Shown: one piece after another, positions 7,078 to 12,024 of the stretch | Numbering within the stretch: the first letter of the stretch is position 1 | Layout of the letters: every line of letters starts with the position of its first letter | Assembly (NCBI RefSeq): GCF_030440365.1 | Contig: NZ_CP124050.1 | Coordinates: forward strand, 558,001 to 622,000 | DNA from: [Borrelia] lusitaniae | GTDB lineage: Bacteria > Spirochaetota > Spirochaetia > Borreliales > Borreliaceae | Length of the DNA: 64,000 nt | Direction of reading: 5' to 3' | The notes under the pieces: model-generated | Databases searched by the model: none | Told to the model about the DNA's origin: nothing | Seen by the model: only the letters and a program-made list of their open reading frames with translations | Translations under genes and position numbers: made by a program

Positions 7078-8565
7078 TTATTTAATTATTTTTATTTGCT
7101 TAAATTCAGGCTTTAGATTTTTGTACATAATCCCCAGTTCATGGATATTTTTGACTTCTATTAGGTTTCTAAAAAATTCTTCTTTATTTTTTAAAGCAGG
7201 GTTAATGAAATAATTTTCAAATTTATATTTTGAGATTATTTCATGATTTTTTAAAGCCTCATTTAAATTATTAGTTGGATTTATTTCAATATAGTATGTG
7301 TTTTCTTTTTTAAGTGCAAATTGATTCCCTTTTTCTTTAAATTTATAGTTATTAAGGTATGTGTCAGGGTAGATTTGAAAATCCGCTGTTTTGATCATAG
7401 TGATTTTTGGGGTGCTTTTAGCACTTTCTTCTAGGTTTTGGCTTTCATTTTTTTCTATAGGGCTTACGAATTTCTTTTCTAATTTGTCACTTTCTTTTAA
7501 GTCGTCATTTTTGTTTGTAATACTTGGAATTAAACTTTCTTCGTTTAAAGATTTTTGAGAAATTTCTTTTTTTTTAAAATTGTTTAATTCTTTTTGAAGT
7601 TTTAAAATAGTTTCTTCATTTTCCTCTATTTTATCTTCTAATTTTTTGAGTTTGTTTTTATCAGTTCTTATTTTTTTTTCATTTTCTTTGTTTGTTGTTT
7701 CGTTTGTGATAATTTTGTCTTTTAGGTCATTTATTATTTTTCCTATTGAATATAGATTTTCTTTTATTTCTTCTAAGTTTTTATCTGAGTCATCTTTTTT
7801 TCTAAACTTTCTTAATTCTTTTTGCAAGTCTAAGATAGTATTTTCATTATCATTGATCCTGTCTTCAAGTTCATCAAATTTTTTTTCATTAATAGCATAA
7901 GATTTTTCGTTTCTATTACGATTTTCTTTTAGACTATTTATTATTCCTTCATTAGAAGGGTAGTTTTCTTCATTTATTTCTTCAATTTCATCATCATATT
8001 CATAATTTTCTTCGAAATCGTCATCATCATCAATGTTTTTAATGTTTATTTTGTCGTAATTTTCATCTTTTTTAGATCTAGGTTTCTTGTTAAGGAGCTT
8101 TTTTATTTCCGCTATTTCATTTTTTAATTTGTTGGTTAACATTTCATATTTTTGTGCTTTTCTTTCGATCGATTCCATTTTTTTATTTTTATTTGCTGAT
8201 TCTTTTTGATTTTTGGTTTTTAAAAGCTTTTCTATATTTTTAATTTTATTTTCATAACTTTCAATAATAGATTTTAGATCATTTTCATCCATTCTTTTTT
8301 CAAGTAGATTTTTGCCTCTTATATTTTCTGGCAACTTTAGATCTTTACCCTTTTTGGGGTCATTATAAGAAACTATGTTTTTATTTAAATTGTTTGAGGT
8401 ATTTATTTGATCGTTTTTATTCTCAATATTTTTAAATTCCTCACTTAAGTCTTCTAAGGGAATTTCAATGCTAGAGTAGCTTATTGTATTATTATTAGCT
8501 CCAAATAATGATATGCAAGAAAGTATTATAAAATACCTAAAGCTTCGATTTTTTGTTTTATTCAT
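7078..8565 (-). CDS. Exported coiled-coil protein of unknown function
   Basis: This frame encodes about 495 aa from the ATG at 8565. I prefer that start over a GTG at 8652 because AAGGA stands 4 nt before it and because a signal peptide then comes first (basic MNKTKNR, hydrophobic YFIILSCISLFGA). ILSC resembles a spirochaete lipobox but leaves only a short hydrophobic core, so ordinary cleavage after GA seems as likely. Most of the protein (about 60-380) is charged Glu/Lys/Asn coiled coil with a repeated unit (IxDLKDKI, LEDRI-N-ENT, LQKEL-FRKK), seen at least twice. The last 110 residues look globular. Matches BB0553 by position. No homologous function is recognised; a periplasmic structural or tethering role is only a guess. 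Confidence 0.85.
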   Translation of the reverse strand: MNKTKNRSFRYFIILSCISLFGANNNTISYSSIEIPLEDLSEEFKNIENKNDQINTSNNLNKNIVSYNDPKKGKDLKLPENIRGKNLLEKRMDENDLKSIIESYENKIKNIEKLLKTKNQKESANKNKKMESIERKAQKYEMLTNKLKNEIAEIKKLLNKKPRSKKDENYDKINIKNIDDDDDFEENYEYDDEIEEINEENYPSNEGIINSLKENRNRNEKSYAINEKKFDELEDRINDNENTILDLQKELRKFRKKDDSDKNLEEIKENLYSIGKIINDLKDKIITNETTNKENEKKIRTDKNKLKKLEDKIEENEETILKLQKELNNFKKKEISQKSLNEESLIPSITNKNDDLKESDKLEKKFVSPIEKNESQNLEESAKSTPKITMIKTADFQIYPDTYLNNYKFKEKGNQFALKKENTYYIEINPTNNLNEALKNHEIISKYKFENYFINPALKNKEEFFRNLIEVKNIHELGIMYKNLKPEFKQIKIIK

Positions 8566-8845
8566 AAGGTCCTTGTTTTTATTTAGAAAACATCTATAAT
8601 TTATAATGTTATCATAGTTTGTCCATTTATCAAAAAAGTGATAAGAAATCACCGGAGGTGTTATTTCTGTTAGCAGGTGTTACTAATTTCAAGTTAGTTT
8701 TTAAGTGAATTTCTTATTAAGTTGCTTTAAGATTGTTTCATATGTTAGTAAGGTCACCTGTTTTTGAAGTTTTATTTTTCAATCCTTTTTATTTATACAA
8801 TGATAGATTCTTACTGATTTAATTTTTTTTGTTTGGTTGGAGTTT
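8566..8845. other. Divergent intergenic region with AGGTG/CACCT motifs
   Basis: This 280-nt gap separates the minus-strand exported protein from the plus-strand three-gene operon. It holds CACCGGAGGTG (8650-8660), a direct repeat AGGTGTTA at 8656-8663 and 8675-8682 (19 nt apart), and a palindromic AGGTCACCT at 8751-8759. These are unusually GC-rich for the surroundings. A possible -10, TACAAT, is at 8796-8801 for the plus-strand operon. A 16-codon frame from GTG 8658 exists but is too short to call. Confidence 0.4.
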
Positions 8846-10714
8846 GTGAGTTTGACAAATGTGGATGCACATGAATTTTGGGCTTTGCCAGTTTGCTGCA
8901 ATGTTAAAGATTCTTTTATTGAAGATTTTAGCCTTGCAGATGAACATGTAAGTTCAATTTTTAGTATCAGTTATAAAGACAATATAACTTTAAAGTTTAG
9001 AGATTTTGTTGATTCTAATGAATTTAATTTAAAGCTTTTTGATAATAAAGTAAGTTTTGAAGGTCAAATTCCCTTAGTTTTGTATTCAGATAATTTGGAT
9101 TATTTGCTAAAAGCAGAAAAAAGTGTTCTTTTCAATCTAAGAATTGGTGATGAGAATAATAATTACTCTTCTGGATTTGAAAATAAAAAATCTGGAACTT
9201 GCAATTTGCTTAATGCTTGTTATAAGTTTAGTGATTATAACAGTTTTCCAGACGACTTTATTTTAGTTAAAATATTTTTTGATTCTGAAAATTTAATTAT
9301 TGATGCTAATGTAGATAATATTTCTTTTTTGAAATTTTTTATTAGTGAAAATTTTGGTGTGGATAAAGACAAAATAAAAATTAATTCTCTTAATAGTTAC
9401 TGGTCTAGTTATATTTTTCCTATTTCTTTTAATGCAATTTTGCAAGGCATTGTAATTTCAAAAAAAATTAATAAAAGGGTTAATGTTGTTTACTACAAAA
9501 GGCATTTTAGAATTTTAGATAATTTAAATTTAACTTTTTCAGTTTCTAATTGTTTATTGGCAGATAACAAACTTTCAAAGATTATTTTGGAAATTGTAAT
9601 AAATAGACCTTTACATTTTTTGTATAAATTTTATTTTAAATTTATTAATAATATTTTTAAAAATTTGTTTTTTGATGGGTTTTTAGAAATTTTTTTTGTT
9701 GAGAATAAAAGTGATTTCATATTTTTTTATGACAATCTTTTAGCATTTGAAACTTCTATTTATAATTTTATTTATTCCAATTTTTATAATCTTGCTTTAT
9801 CAATGTCTTGTGAGCCAATAGGCTATTTGCTTACGCAGATTAAAGGTGACCACAATAGTTTTTTTAAAATTTTTAAAAAATTGGATTTAAAGAATTCCTT
9901 GATAAAAAAATCTTCTGTTTTAAGTGTTAATAAGAATTATGATATTTTTAATACTAGTCGCAGGGGAGTTGGTTTTGCTTATTTGAATTCAAACACTTAT
10001 TTTTTAAGTGGAGAGCAATATGTTGTTGCTCTCTTATATAAGGATGAATTAAATATATTTTTGCCCTACAGTATTGTTGACAACAATTTAAGTAACTATT
10101 TGAAAAATAGTTTGGCCAAAACATTAGGTCTAGCTTATGACAGTATAAATTTTTTAATAGATGAGAGTGTATTAGATTTTACTAATTTTTATAGTCTTCT
10201 TTTTAAAGATCCTTATTTGATTGAAAAAGCAATTTTAAACATTAAGGACAATTTTTCTTCTCTGATAAGTACAGATTTTATAAATGAATATCCCGTTGTT
10301 TTTAAAGAAAAAATAGCTACTGACTATGTTAATGACTGTATACTTGGATGTTCTGTTGAGCTTAAATTTGAATTTTATTCTCTTAGCGCTGTTTTTAGCA
10401 ATGTAAGCTTTTTTGTAGAGCAAGGCAAATTTGCCAAGCTTAAGTTAAATAACAAAAGAATTCATACAATATTTGGGTTAGCAGTTGATTATGTATTTTG
10501 CAGTGCTAATGTAAATTGCGATATTAAAGATTGTTTAAGCTTAGAGTTTATTGAAGATGGCGAGTTTGTTTTTTCTTTTAGAAGTTTTTTTATCGTTTCT
10601 GTTTCTGCAATTCGAACTGCTTTGATTCAGATATTTGATTTTAATGCAAGCAGTACGCCTCTTGATTTTGAAGAAATTTTAAATAGTTGGAGTGTCAAAA
10701 TTGATATTAATTAA
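8846..10714 (+). CDS. Degenerate molybdenum-hydroxylase large subunit (CoxL / xanthine dehydrogenase Mo-subunit family)
   Basis: Usually left as hypothetical (BB0554 by position). The order of segments follows the molybdopterin-binding subunit of aldehyde oxidase / CO dehydrogenase-type enzymes. A GQIPLVLYSDNLDYLLKAEK segment resembles the family G-x-P-vA-vvA-d block. FLKFFISENFGVDKDKIKI resembles the a-ALGLPEEKVRV block, and GVGFAYLNSN resembles the G-iG-A block. NSLAKTLGLAYDSINFLIDE resembles the QIAAEELGIP-DVrV block. The C-terminus ends SAIRTALIQIF then PLDFEEILNSW, like the AI-nAv-dAlGv...LPlTPE-i family end. The catalytic Glu motif (GxGE), expected just before SAIRTAL, is replaced by SFRSFF, so normal chemistry looks impossible. 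Start uncertain: TTG 8837, GTG 8846 or TTG 8852; GGAG lies at 8839-8842. Heads a three-gene operon. The family assignment is by eye. Confidence 0.55.
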   Translation: MSLTNVDAHEFWALPVCCNVKDSFIEDFSLADEHVSSIFSISYKDNITLKFRDFVDSNEFNLKLFDNKVSFEGQIPLVLYSDNLDYLLKAEKSVLFNLRIGDENNNYSSGFENKKSGTCNLLNACYKFSDYNSFPDDFILVKIFFDSENLIIDANVDNISFLKFFISENFGVDKDKIKINSLNSYWSSYIFPISFNAILQGIVISKKINKRVNVVYYKRHFRILDNLNLTFSVSNCLLADNKLSKIILEIVINRPLHFLYKFYFKFINNIFKNLFFDGFLEIFFVENKSDFIFFYDNLLAFETSIYNFIYSNFYNLALSMSCEPIGYLLTQIKGDHNSFFKIFKKLDLKNSLIKKSSVLSVNKNYDIFNTSRRGVGFAYLNSNTYFLSGEQYVVALLYKDELNIFLPYSIVDNNLSNYLKNSLAKTLGLAYDSINFLIDESVLDFTNFYSLLFKDPYLIEKAILNIKDNFSSLISTDFINEYPVVFKEKIATDYVNDCILGCSVELKFEFYSLSAVFSNVSFFVEQGKFAKLKLNNKRIHTIFGLAVDYVFCSANVNCDIKDCLSLEFIEDGEFVFSFRSFFIVSVSAIRTALIQIFDFNASSTPLDFEEILNSWSVKIDIN

Positions 10715-11168
10715 TTTTAATCTAAACGGAGAGAGTATTTCAAAAAAGGTTAGTCTCTCTTTAGCTACTAGAAGTCTTTTAGATTCTATTTTTTTTGCCA
10801 AGAGTAATAGTTTGGAGTACATTGTTAATAACAGATTTTTTCTAATTTTATTGGATTTTAGACTTGTTTATTCTAATATAATTCCTGCTTTTATTTTAAA
10901 TGGTCGCAGTGTAGTTACTCTTGAAGGGCTAAAGAAAAAAAGTTTTTATCAATACATGCAAAAAATTTTATTAGAAGACGATTTTAATTTTTGTAGTAAT
11001 TGTTTTGAAGCTAATTTTTTGTTGTTTTATTACTTTTTGGAAAACAAGATTGTAAGCAAATCAGATATTTTAGGTTATAGAAATTCATTAAAATGTAATT
11101 GTATGGATATTAATACTTTTTTATCTCTCTATTTGAAAGCTGAAGAATTGTACAGAAAAAATGGTTAA
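10701..11168 (+). CDS. Degenerate [2Fe-2S] small subunit of a molybdenum hydroxylase (CoxS-like)
   Basis: I choose TTG 10701 because GGAG (10689-10692) is 8 nt upstream; GTG 10692 would overlap that site. The 155 aa follow the CoxS plan. An N-terminal ferredoxin-like strand pair reads FNLNGES. NGRSVVTLEGL at 67-77 matches the family linker G-x-v-xTiEGL. A helical domain then carries C98-x2-C101 and C132-x-C134. The spacing C-x2-C-x30-C-x-C is within one residue of the proximal-cluster pattern in xanthine dehydrogenase and CoxS. The four cysteines of the N-terminal (distal) cluster are all gone. One Fe-S cluster may therefore still form while electron transfer onward could not. It overlaps the previous gene by 14 nt and the next by 8 nt. 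BB0555 by position. Confidence 0.65.
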   Translation: MILINFNLNGESISKKVSLSLATRSLLDSIFFAKSNSLEYIVNNRFFLILLDFRLVYSNIIPAFILNGRSVVTLEGLKKKSFYQYMQKILLEDDFNFCSNCFEANFLLFYYFLENKIVSKSDILGYRNSLKCNCMDINTFLSLYLKAEELYRKNG

Positions 11169-12024
11169 TGTTAAGGTTTATTATCCTGAAAGTTTTAATA
11201 CACTATCTAATTTATTTAACAATAATTTAAATAATTATATTATTTATAATGAGCTAGATTTTAAAAAAAATCCTAATTTGTTTAATAGAGAAACGCCTGT
11301 TGACAATTTTTTTATTGTTGGTAATTTTGAAAAATTTAATAAGGTGTCTTTAAGGGGTAATTTTCTTGAGATGGGACCTTGTGTTACTTACAATGAGATA
11401 CTCCAGATTGGCAAAAAAAATATTCCAAGTCTGCTTTATGAGTTTATTTCACAATTTAATGATAAAATATATTTAAATAGCATTAACCTTGCAAATGGGT
11501 TTTATTATAAAAACACTGTTTTTGATATTTATCCTTTATTGTTAAGTCTTGATGCGCAAATTGAGTTTAAAAATGTTTTGACCAAAAAAACTTATGTTTT
11601 TAGTGCTTATAATTTAAATAGAGCCGAGTATATTGCAAACCGAAATACTTTTCTTGTTACTAAATTTAAATTTCCAATGATGAATCTATGGAATAGAAGC
11701 TTTTATCATAAAGTATTTTTCAATACCTTGTCTTTTGACATTTTAGAAGAAACAGATATTATCTTTATATGCATTCTTTTAAACATAAAAAGAGATATTA
11801 TAAATGATTTTTTGTTGAAAATATTTTATGATGATAAGGCGATCGTAATAAAGGATTTTCAGATTTTGCTTTTGAATAAATCTTTGCCGCTTTCATTTTT
11901 TGAGATAGAAAATTCTCTTAAAATGTTGGATAAAAATATAAGAGATTCTAAAAATTTTAAAATAGGGGAGAGAAATTTAAAGCTCATAAAGAATTTTTAT
12001 TTAGATATATTAATGAGTTTTTAA
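11161..12024 (+). CDS. Degenerate FAD-binding medium subunit (CoxM-like)
   Basis: The 287 aa resemble the FAD subunit of CO dehydrogenase/xanthine dehydrogenase. VKVYYPESFNTLSNLF matches the opening y-P-tsl-eal-lL pattern. LEMGPCVTYNEI matches the L-iGA-vT--ei motif. After it comes a segment aligned to the second flavin loop (SINLANGFYYKNTVFD, family TIGGNLA-aspaaD) and IYPLLLSLDAQIEF (family p-LLaLdA-v). The first loop (aGGTDL) is reduced to YNELDF, and the double Gly of the second loop is missing, so FAD binding is doubtful. Starts with ATG inside the end of the Fe-S subunit gene. The order L-S-M in one operon supports a common origin. BB0556 by position; no activity is claimed. Confidence 0.6.
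   Translation: MVNVKVYYPESFNTLSNLFNNNLNNYIIYNELDFKKNPNLFNRETPVDNFFIVGNFEKFNKVSLRGNFLEMGPCVTYNEILQIGKKNIPSLLYEFISQFNDKIYLNSINLANGFYYKNTVFDIYPLLLSLDAQIEFKNVLTKKTYVFSAYNLNRAEYIANRNTFLVTKFKFPMMNLWNRSFYHKVFFNTLSFDILEETDIIFICILLNIKRDIINDFLLKIFYDDKAIVIKDFQILLLNKSLPLSFFEIENSLKMLDKNIRDSKNFKIGERNLKLIKNFYLDILMSF

Follow-up and report, generated by a model that had tools for sequence, protein, structure and literature searches.

The bb0554-bb0556 cluster of Borrelia: a xanthine dehydrogenase-fold gene trio that probably no longer serves as a molybdenum hydroxylase

Does a gene cluster of the Lyme spirochaetes that carries the name of xanthine dehydrogenase still encode this enzyme? We addressed this question using a window of 64,000 nucleotides from [Borrelia] lusitaniae (contig NZ_CP124050.1, positions 558,001 to 622,000 of the forward strand), in which three genes, here called L, S and M, correspond by orthology and order to bb0554-bb0556, the "putative xanthine dehydrogenase" cluster xdhACB. 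The original prediction, made from the letters of the window, knew of no published description of this cluster, and here it was mistaken. In earlier papers, bb0554-bb0556 are described as homologous, to a limited extent, to subunits of CO dehydrogenase and are among the genes common to screens with tert-butyl hydroperoxide (TBHP) and H2O2, with insertion mutants being peroxide-sensitive (Ramsey 2017, PMC5333916); bb0554 and bb0555 are listed in a larval-tick transposon sequencing (Tn-seq) table (PMC6516651); and the cluster is called xdhACB, encoding xanthine dehydrogenase (PMC10566445, which cites Phelan 2023). Our analysis argues that Borrelia L, S and M probably form a heterotrimer of xanthine dehydrogenase (XDH) fold that is no longer a molybdenum (Mo) hydroxylase and is under selection for a role other than hydroxylation.

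Open reading frame calls on the window confirmed the predicted layout of three overlapping genes of 622, 155 and 287 codons, all on the + strand and in the order L, S, M. The genes, the alternative starts, and the sites corresponding to the cofactor-binding motifs of Mo hydroxylases, i.e., the Mo site, the two [2Fe-2S] clusters (FeS I, Mo-proximal; FeS II, ferredoxin-type) and the flavin adenine dinucleotide (FAD) loops, are as follows.

8846..10714, + strand: L, Mo-subunit-like, BB0554 position; 622 codons, GTG start at 8846
8837-10714, + strand: longer alternative of L, TTG start at 8837, 625 amino acids, with GTG 8846 in frame
10565..10591, + strand: L segment aligned to the catalytic-Glu motif GxGE; reads FVFSFRSFF, Glu absent there
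10701..11168, + strand: S, Fe-S-subunit-like, BB0555 position; 155 codons, TTG start at 10701
10692-11168, + strand: longer alternative of S, 158 amino acids
10809..10877 (boundaries approximate), + strand: S, ferredoxin-type (Mo-distal) [2Fe-2S] loop region; 0/4 Cys in 36/36 Borreliaceae
10992..11003, + strand: S, CxxC, first half of the Mo-proximal [2Fe-2S] site; invariant in 36/36
11094..11102, + strand: S, CxC, second half of the Mo-proximal [2Fe-2S] site; invariant in 36/36
11161..12024, + strand: M, FAD-subunit-like, BB0556 position; 287 codons
11245..11256, + strand: M, first FAD loop site (xGGT in canonical XDH); reads YNEL
11485..11499, + strand: M, second FAD loop site (TIGGN in canonical XDH); reads NLANG

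The original prediction assigned these genes, in this order, to the Mo, Fe-S and FAD subunits of the XDH and CO dehydrogenase family, and proposed a search against the Cox and XDH families as a check. Direct searches returned matches below the family cut-offs only, i.e., M against FAD_binding_5 in Pfam (E 0.0045) and against the XDH small subunit in NCBIfam (E 1.6e-4), and S against the Fe-S subunits of XDH (E 4.7e-4) and glyceraldehyde dehydrogenase (E 6.2e-4) in NCBIfam; Pfam gave no direct match for L or S, NCBIfam gave none for L, and the L profile compared with PDB by sequence found chance matches only. Taken by themselves, the Pfam and PDB results would suit chance or convergent composition in AT-rich proteins, but this explanation is vanishingly unlikely, as L, S and M are consistent with one another both in their profiles and in their order, structure comparison agrees for L and S, and the controls are clean. 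In profile-profile comparison, the L profile matched that of 30 other spirochaete L proteins with a probability of 98.3% (E 1.9e-14, 574 columns), and the M profile matched that of 29 other spirochaete M proteins at 99.5% (E 2.3e-22, hhalign), with crossed controls at ~0.1% each. The spirochaete L intermediates in turn matched solved XDH at E 4e-77 with most of the Mo domain covered, and structure comparison supported family membership of L and S, with L having the overall XDH fold. For S, a profile built from 23 of the 36 Borreliaceae sequences (A2) found seven proteins with 25-35% identity (E 2.5e-10 to 3.7e-4), which were added to give profile A4. Because profile-profile comparison through spirochaete intermediates and structure comparison agree, the homology is firm through these intermediates: L is, along the greater part of its sequence, a remote homologue of the Mo-binding subunit, S of the two-cluster Fe-S subunit and M of the FAD subunit, and the predicted order and descent stand. 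These are the same three fold classes as in XDH, CoxLSM, nicotinate dehydrogenase and quinoline 2-oxidoreductase.

What the cluster shares in fold with this family it largely lacks in cofactor sites. In all 36 Borreliaceae genomes analyzed, S contains none of the four ferredoxin-type (FeS II) Cys, and the second FAD loop of M reads N[LI][AS]NG in place of TxGGN; the first FAD loop reads YNEL or YNEI in place of xGGT in 34 of 36, with two rows unaligned. In the window, the GxGE segment of L is FSFRS and the catalytic Glu is lost, and in Borrelia L the segments aligned to the Arg (RGxG) of the molybdenum cofactor (Moco) site and to the GQG loop hold unrelated residues. In contrast, all four Cys (CxxC...CxC) of the Mo-proximal, helical-domain [2Fe-2S] site (FeS I), the same ligands as in the XDH and CO dehydrogenase family, are invariant in 36/36. 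The alignments therefore agree with the predicted loss of the Glu motif, the distal Fe-S Cys and the FAD loops, but the prediction overlooked the four FeS I Cys, and because of these we rejected loss of every redox site.

The supply of the cofactor was examined using two families of the Moco pathway, MoaC and MoeA_N. MoaC matches were found in 119 of 394 Spirochaetia genomes (69 of the 279 rated good) and were absent from the other 275 of 394; no Borreliaceae genome was among the MoaC matches, and MoeA_N was found in 0/36 Borreliaceae and in 8 of 37 chosen other genomes. For these two families, the expectation that molybdopterin synthesis is lacking is correct. With S-profile matches in 275 of the 279 good genomes and MoaC in 69, at least 206 good genomes have an S of either kind without MoaC. 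Three MoaC-positive genomes (G253, G090 and G104) carry a family L that still lacks the Moco-site Arg, showing that this loss is independent of Moco supply. As a separate observation, many genomes of one family (f9) have about four S-profile matches, with MoaC absent.

Because the residues are lost and the genome has no MoaC or MoeA match, XDH activity is argued against, and on its residues the cluster very probably cannot be a xanthine dehydrogenase, even though the name xdhACB implies that activity. A working XDH with unusual residues that obtains molybdopterin from the host or the medium would be in keeping with the name used in the literature, the XDH fold of L, the retained FeS I Cys, and the existence of spirochaetes in which a canonical-looking XDH is kept although neither MoaC nor MoeA is matched. 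We nevertheless consider it very unlikely, given the loss of the Glu segment, FAD loops and FeS II ligands in Borrelia, the unrelated residues at the Arg and GQG segments, and the missing MoaC and MoeA matches. Borrelia salvages purines and would gain little from oxidising them.

If the cluster is not such an enzyme, it might be a relic operon on its way to pseudogenes, and the many lost motifs, the shorter L proteins in some deposited strains and the fast divergence of L (the window L being 49-56% identical to L of the second Borrelia group) all fit that description. Whole-genome searches showed that L is present once per genome in 36/36 Borreliaceae, including the window's own genome, and in none of 25 other Spirochaetia members at the same search sensitivity. 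Stop codons in other Borrelia were looked for, and L, S and M are open frames in the same order in 36/36, as had been predicted; the one TGA, in the L match of genome G019, lies upstream of its open frame. Median ratios of nonsynonymous to synonymous substitution (dN/dS; Nei-Gojobori, own script, computed on L, S and M alone) were 0.19, 0.14 and 0.10 for L, S and M among 18 Lyme-group genomes, and 0.31, 0.18 and 0.16 in the second genus (17 of 18 genomes, with L025 dropped and the dS filter removing 1 of 136 pairs for L and 1 for M). L, S and M are under purifying selection in Borreliaceae, confirming that they are maintained as three genes. The open frames, these medians of 0.10-0.31, the invariant four Cys, and the recovery of the genes in the peroxide and tick screens make a decaying relic highly improbable.

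We then asked whether the losses belong to Borrelia or to a wider family. Loci were sampled as 40 loci from 36 chosen genomes, followed by 28 further chosen genomes and 80 named loci, which were the best 80 of 178 from a spirochaete-pattern scan of named genomes (79 labelled spirochaetes and one Fibrimonas metagenome-assembled genome). In the first 40 loci, most S matches sit in an L-S-M operon, with an L of ~690 amino acids. Across 150 loci (L067-L216) there were 151 S matches, 130 in an L-S-M operon and 21 outside one, the latter being fused frames, canonical copies, cut contigs, or loci with L or M unrecognised. L105, a canonical XDH, was taken out of the 130; of the 129 left, 115 remained once near-identical S proteins had been removed. 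Of the 36 chosen genomes, 31 had a non-canonical L-S-M operon, as did 27 of the 28 further ones (one genome being in both sets) and 71 of the 80 named loci, and the genomes come from many Spirochaetia families; Borrelia has the same L-S-M order with adjoining or overlapping genes. Two side observations concern unusual loci: L069, L073 and L103 contain single long frames (1100, 756 and 679 amino acids) with an S domain, possibly L-S fusions, and L105:624-3497 (- strand) encodes a 958-amino-acid XDH-like protein with an S part without Fe-S Cys, in a genome that also has a canonical XDH set.

To fix the motif columns, we used three canonical Mo subunits found among the fetched loci; in these, the Arg is present in 3/3, GQG in 2/3 (GCG in L084) and Glu in 3/3. 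Measured this way, the 115 operons keep the Moco-site Arg in 0/115, GQG in 1/115 (L101, where Glu is also present) and the catalytic Glu in 48/115, with Asp in 12. Their other sites are better preserved: 106 operons have all four FeS II Cys, 112 have three or more of the FeS I Cys in the canonical columns, 89 have TxGGN, and 45 and 41 have a first FAD loop of xGGT and xGCT, respectively. Both clusters are intact, or have CxC shifted to CC, in ~105 of these 115 non-Borrelia operons; where four FeS II and three FeS I Cys are present, the change is CxC to CC in 28/29. This one-residue shift is seen in S of many treponemes (for example L091, L124, L128 and L130), in 28/115 operons. The loss of Moco-site residues across the 115 operons marks it as a property of the family as a whole, not something that happened in Borrelia, and it presumably dates from early in the Spirochaetia family. 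For example, the operons of L083, Treponema putidum (L137) and T. lecithinolyticum (L086/L182) have the same order and homologous subunits as Borrelia and have already lost the Arg. Decay within Borrelia, as originally proposed, is therefore right for the losses on the Borrelia side and wrong for the Moco site, which had already gone in a family that is wide in Spirochaetia. We found no statement of this absence in the literature within reach of our search, which did not extend to Phelan 2023 and George 2024; searches joining spirochete, xanthine dehydrogenase and molybdenum cofactor, or Borrelia burgdorferi, xanthine dehydrogenase and molybdopterin, returned no papers, and a search for Treponema counterparts of L-S-M returned nothing relevant.

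The ferredoxin-type cluster has decayed again in separate lineages. All of its Cys are lost in Borrelia, L085, L097, L098 and L099, most of them in L096 and L107, and one in L109, L120 and L184. L085 lies in a Treponema-type genome of 1.14 Mb (G155, a single contig) from the same family as T. lecithinolyticum, and its genus-mate L107 has lost three of the four. In a tree of S and M (59 rows, rooted on two canonical rows), L101 and L072 are basal and the FeS II losses fall in several lineages.

Most Spirochaetia L-S-M operons keep both clusters, at least one FAD loop and a sugar aminotransferase gene upstream, all features that are reduced or gone in Borrelia. In 74 of the 89 operons that could be tested (26 of the 115 being too short upstream), the gene immediately preceding L encodes a sugar aminotransferase of DegT type, and 23 of the 25 operons with more sequence have a CapD-type dehydratase gene ahead of it. 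This neighbourhood, together with the ~105 operons with kept or CC-shifted clusters and the second FAD loop in 89, suggests a family of flavin and Fe-S oxidoreductases with a new nucleotide-sugar or envelope-glycan substrate, of which Borrelia keeps the scaffold function only. Such a family is compatible with the non-hydroxylase complex that we favour, and we regard it as possible, at rather less than an even chance: 15 of the 89 operons have no DegT neighbour, and neighbourhood is not function. No DegT gene lies directly upstream of L at the window locus, and the 28 Borreliaceae searched show only a partial match to PF01041, the DegT family (27-38 bits, cut-off 19.8, none full-length), which we take to be another pyridoxal phosphate (PLP) enzyme. 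The aminotransferase partner seems to have gone from Borreliaceae, so the role of L-S-M there need not depend on it, and we rejected the proposal that L-S-M works with an aminotransferase everywhere.

Several observations weigh against a non-hydroxylase trimer in Borrelia and against the order of losses described here. G058 (L084) and G378 (L105) have canonical-looking XDH operons without a MoaC or MoeA match, so a missing match is no proof of missing molybdenum enzymes; MoaC absence alone was rejected as proof of Moco independence for this reason. At E <= 1e-8, the A4 profile has matches in 385 of the 394 Spirochaetia genomes, a figure that overcounts the L-S-M family because A4 also matches canonical XDH S subunits, and which we rejected as a family count. 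The motif yardstick consists of only three canonical Mo subunits, including L084 with its GCG. L104 has kept FeS II and lost FeS I, and L097 and L099 have lost both, contrary to FeS I being kept last. Borrelia sits on a long branch of the tree and is weakly placed (support 54 with L098; 80 and 89 deeper). The two AlphaFold single-chain models, made for L and S, are poor (pLDDT 49 and 55), so interfaces and the metal site are not visible in them, and binding of the three proteins to each other is a prediction. Finally, the shorter L proteins in deposited strains (P0030-P0033) have 349-590 amino acids, and one 349-amino-acid cluster has 21 members.

A sequence of steps can be proposed for the non-hydroxylase complex. 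Family L would have lost its molybdopterin site at an early step in Spirochaetia, most members having retained the second FAD loop along with their two Fe-S sites. Further losses in Borrelia, those of the ferredoxin-type cluster and of the flavin loops, would have left one four-Cys S site beside the former place of Mo. In solved relatives, the Mo-proximal Fe-S site is on the face of S that meets L. L and M could then provide a scaffold or a module for binding. The one site left in S, which may hold [2Fe-2S] or, given the presumed low iron need of B. burgdorferi, Zn, could give the complex stability or a redox response. The role of the complex would accordingly be structural or regulatory, as a scaffold or as a redox- or metal-responsive module. 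An S site that stabilises the complex or senses redox state would be in line with the peroxide sensitivity published for insertion mutants.

The genes around the cluster were also examined. Adjoining L on the opposite strand, window positions 7078-8652 (- strand) encode a long Lys/Glu-rich coiled-coil-like protein, for which Pfam and NCBIfam profile searches gave no clear family; beyond it, upstream of L, lies a gene that we take from its translation to be ligA, and downstream of M is what we presume, again from the translations, to be a ptsH-ptsI-crr set. The window comes from a Lyme-group Borreliella, though probably not from B. burgdorferi sensu stricto, as its L shares only 90% identity with the cluster representative of B. 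burgdorferi and 92% with the B. garinii one. In one study, ncRNA0083, an antisense/intergenic RNA at BB_0556 and BB_0556/BB_0557, changes in the BadR comparison (PMC6117026); on that description, its place in the window is around the end of M and the gap after M.

These findings bear on a cluster of the Lyme spirochaete that is reported as needed, and whose name points to a reaction that is very probably impossible for it. Seen instead as a cofactor-stripped complex, it invites studies of the peroxide and tick phenotypes that look at scaffold function, at metal and at the binding of partners. More broadly, and as a tentative view to which we give somewhat less than even odds, Spirochaetia may contain widespread Mo-free XDH-fold complexes that have taken on a new activity or a part in signalling, mostly tied to nucleotide-sugar and envelope-glycan synthesis, which in Borrelia and in a small-genome Treponema-type spirochaete were reduced in parallel toward a single metal site, possibly Zn and not Fe-S, and which would still be needed to survive in ticks and hosts. 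The pattern of loss, with the Moco-site Arg gone in 115/115, FeS II lost or thinned in several lineages and FeS I lasting longest in most (L104 being a counter-example), makes this family a rare chance to trace how, within a single bacterial class, a redox enzyme loses its cofactor sites.

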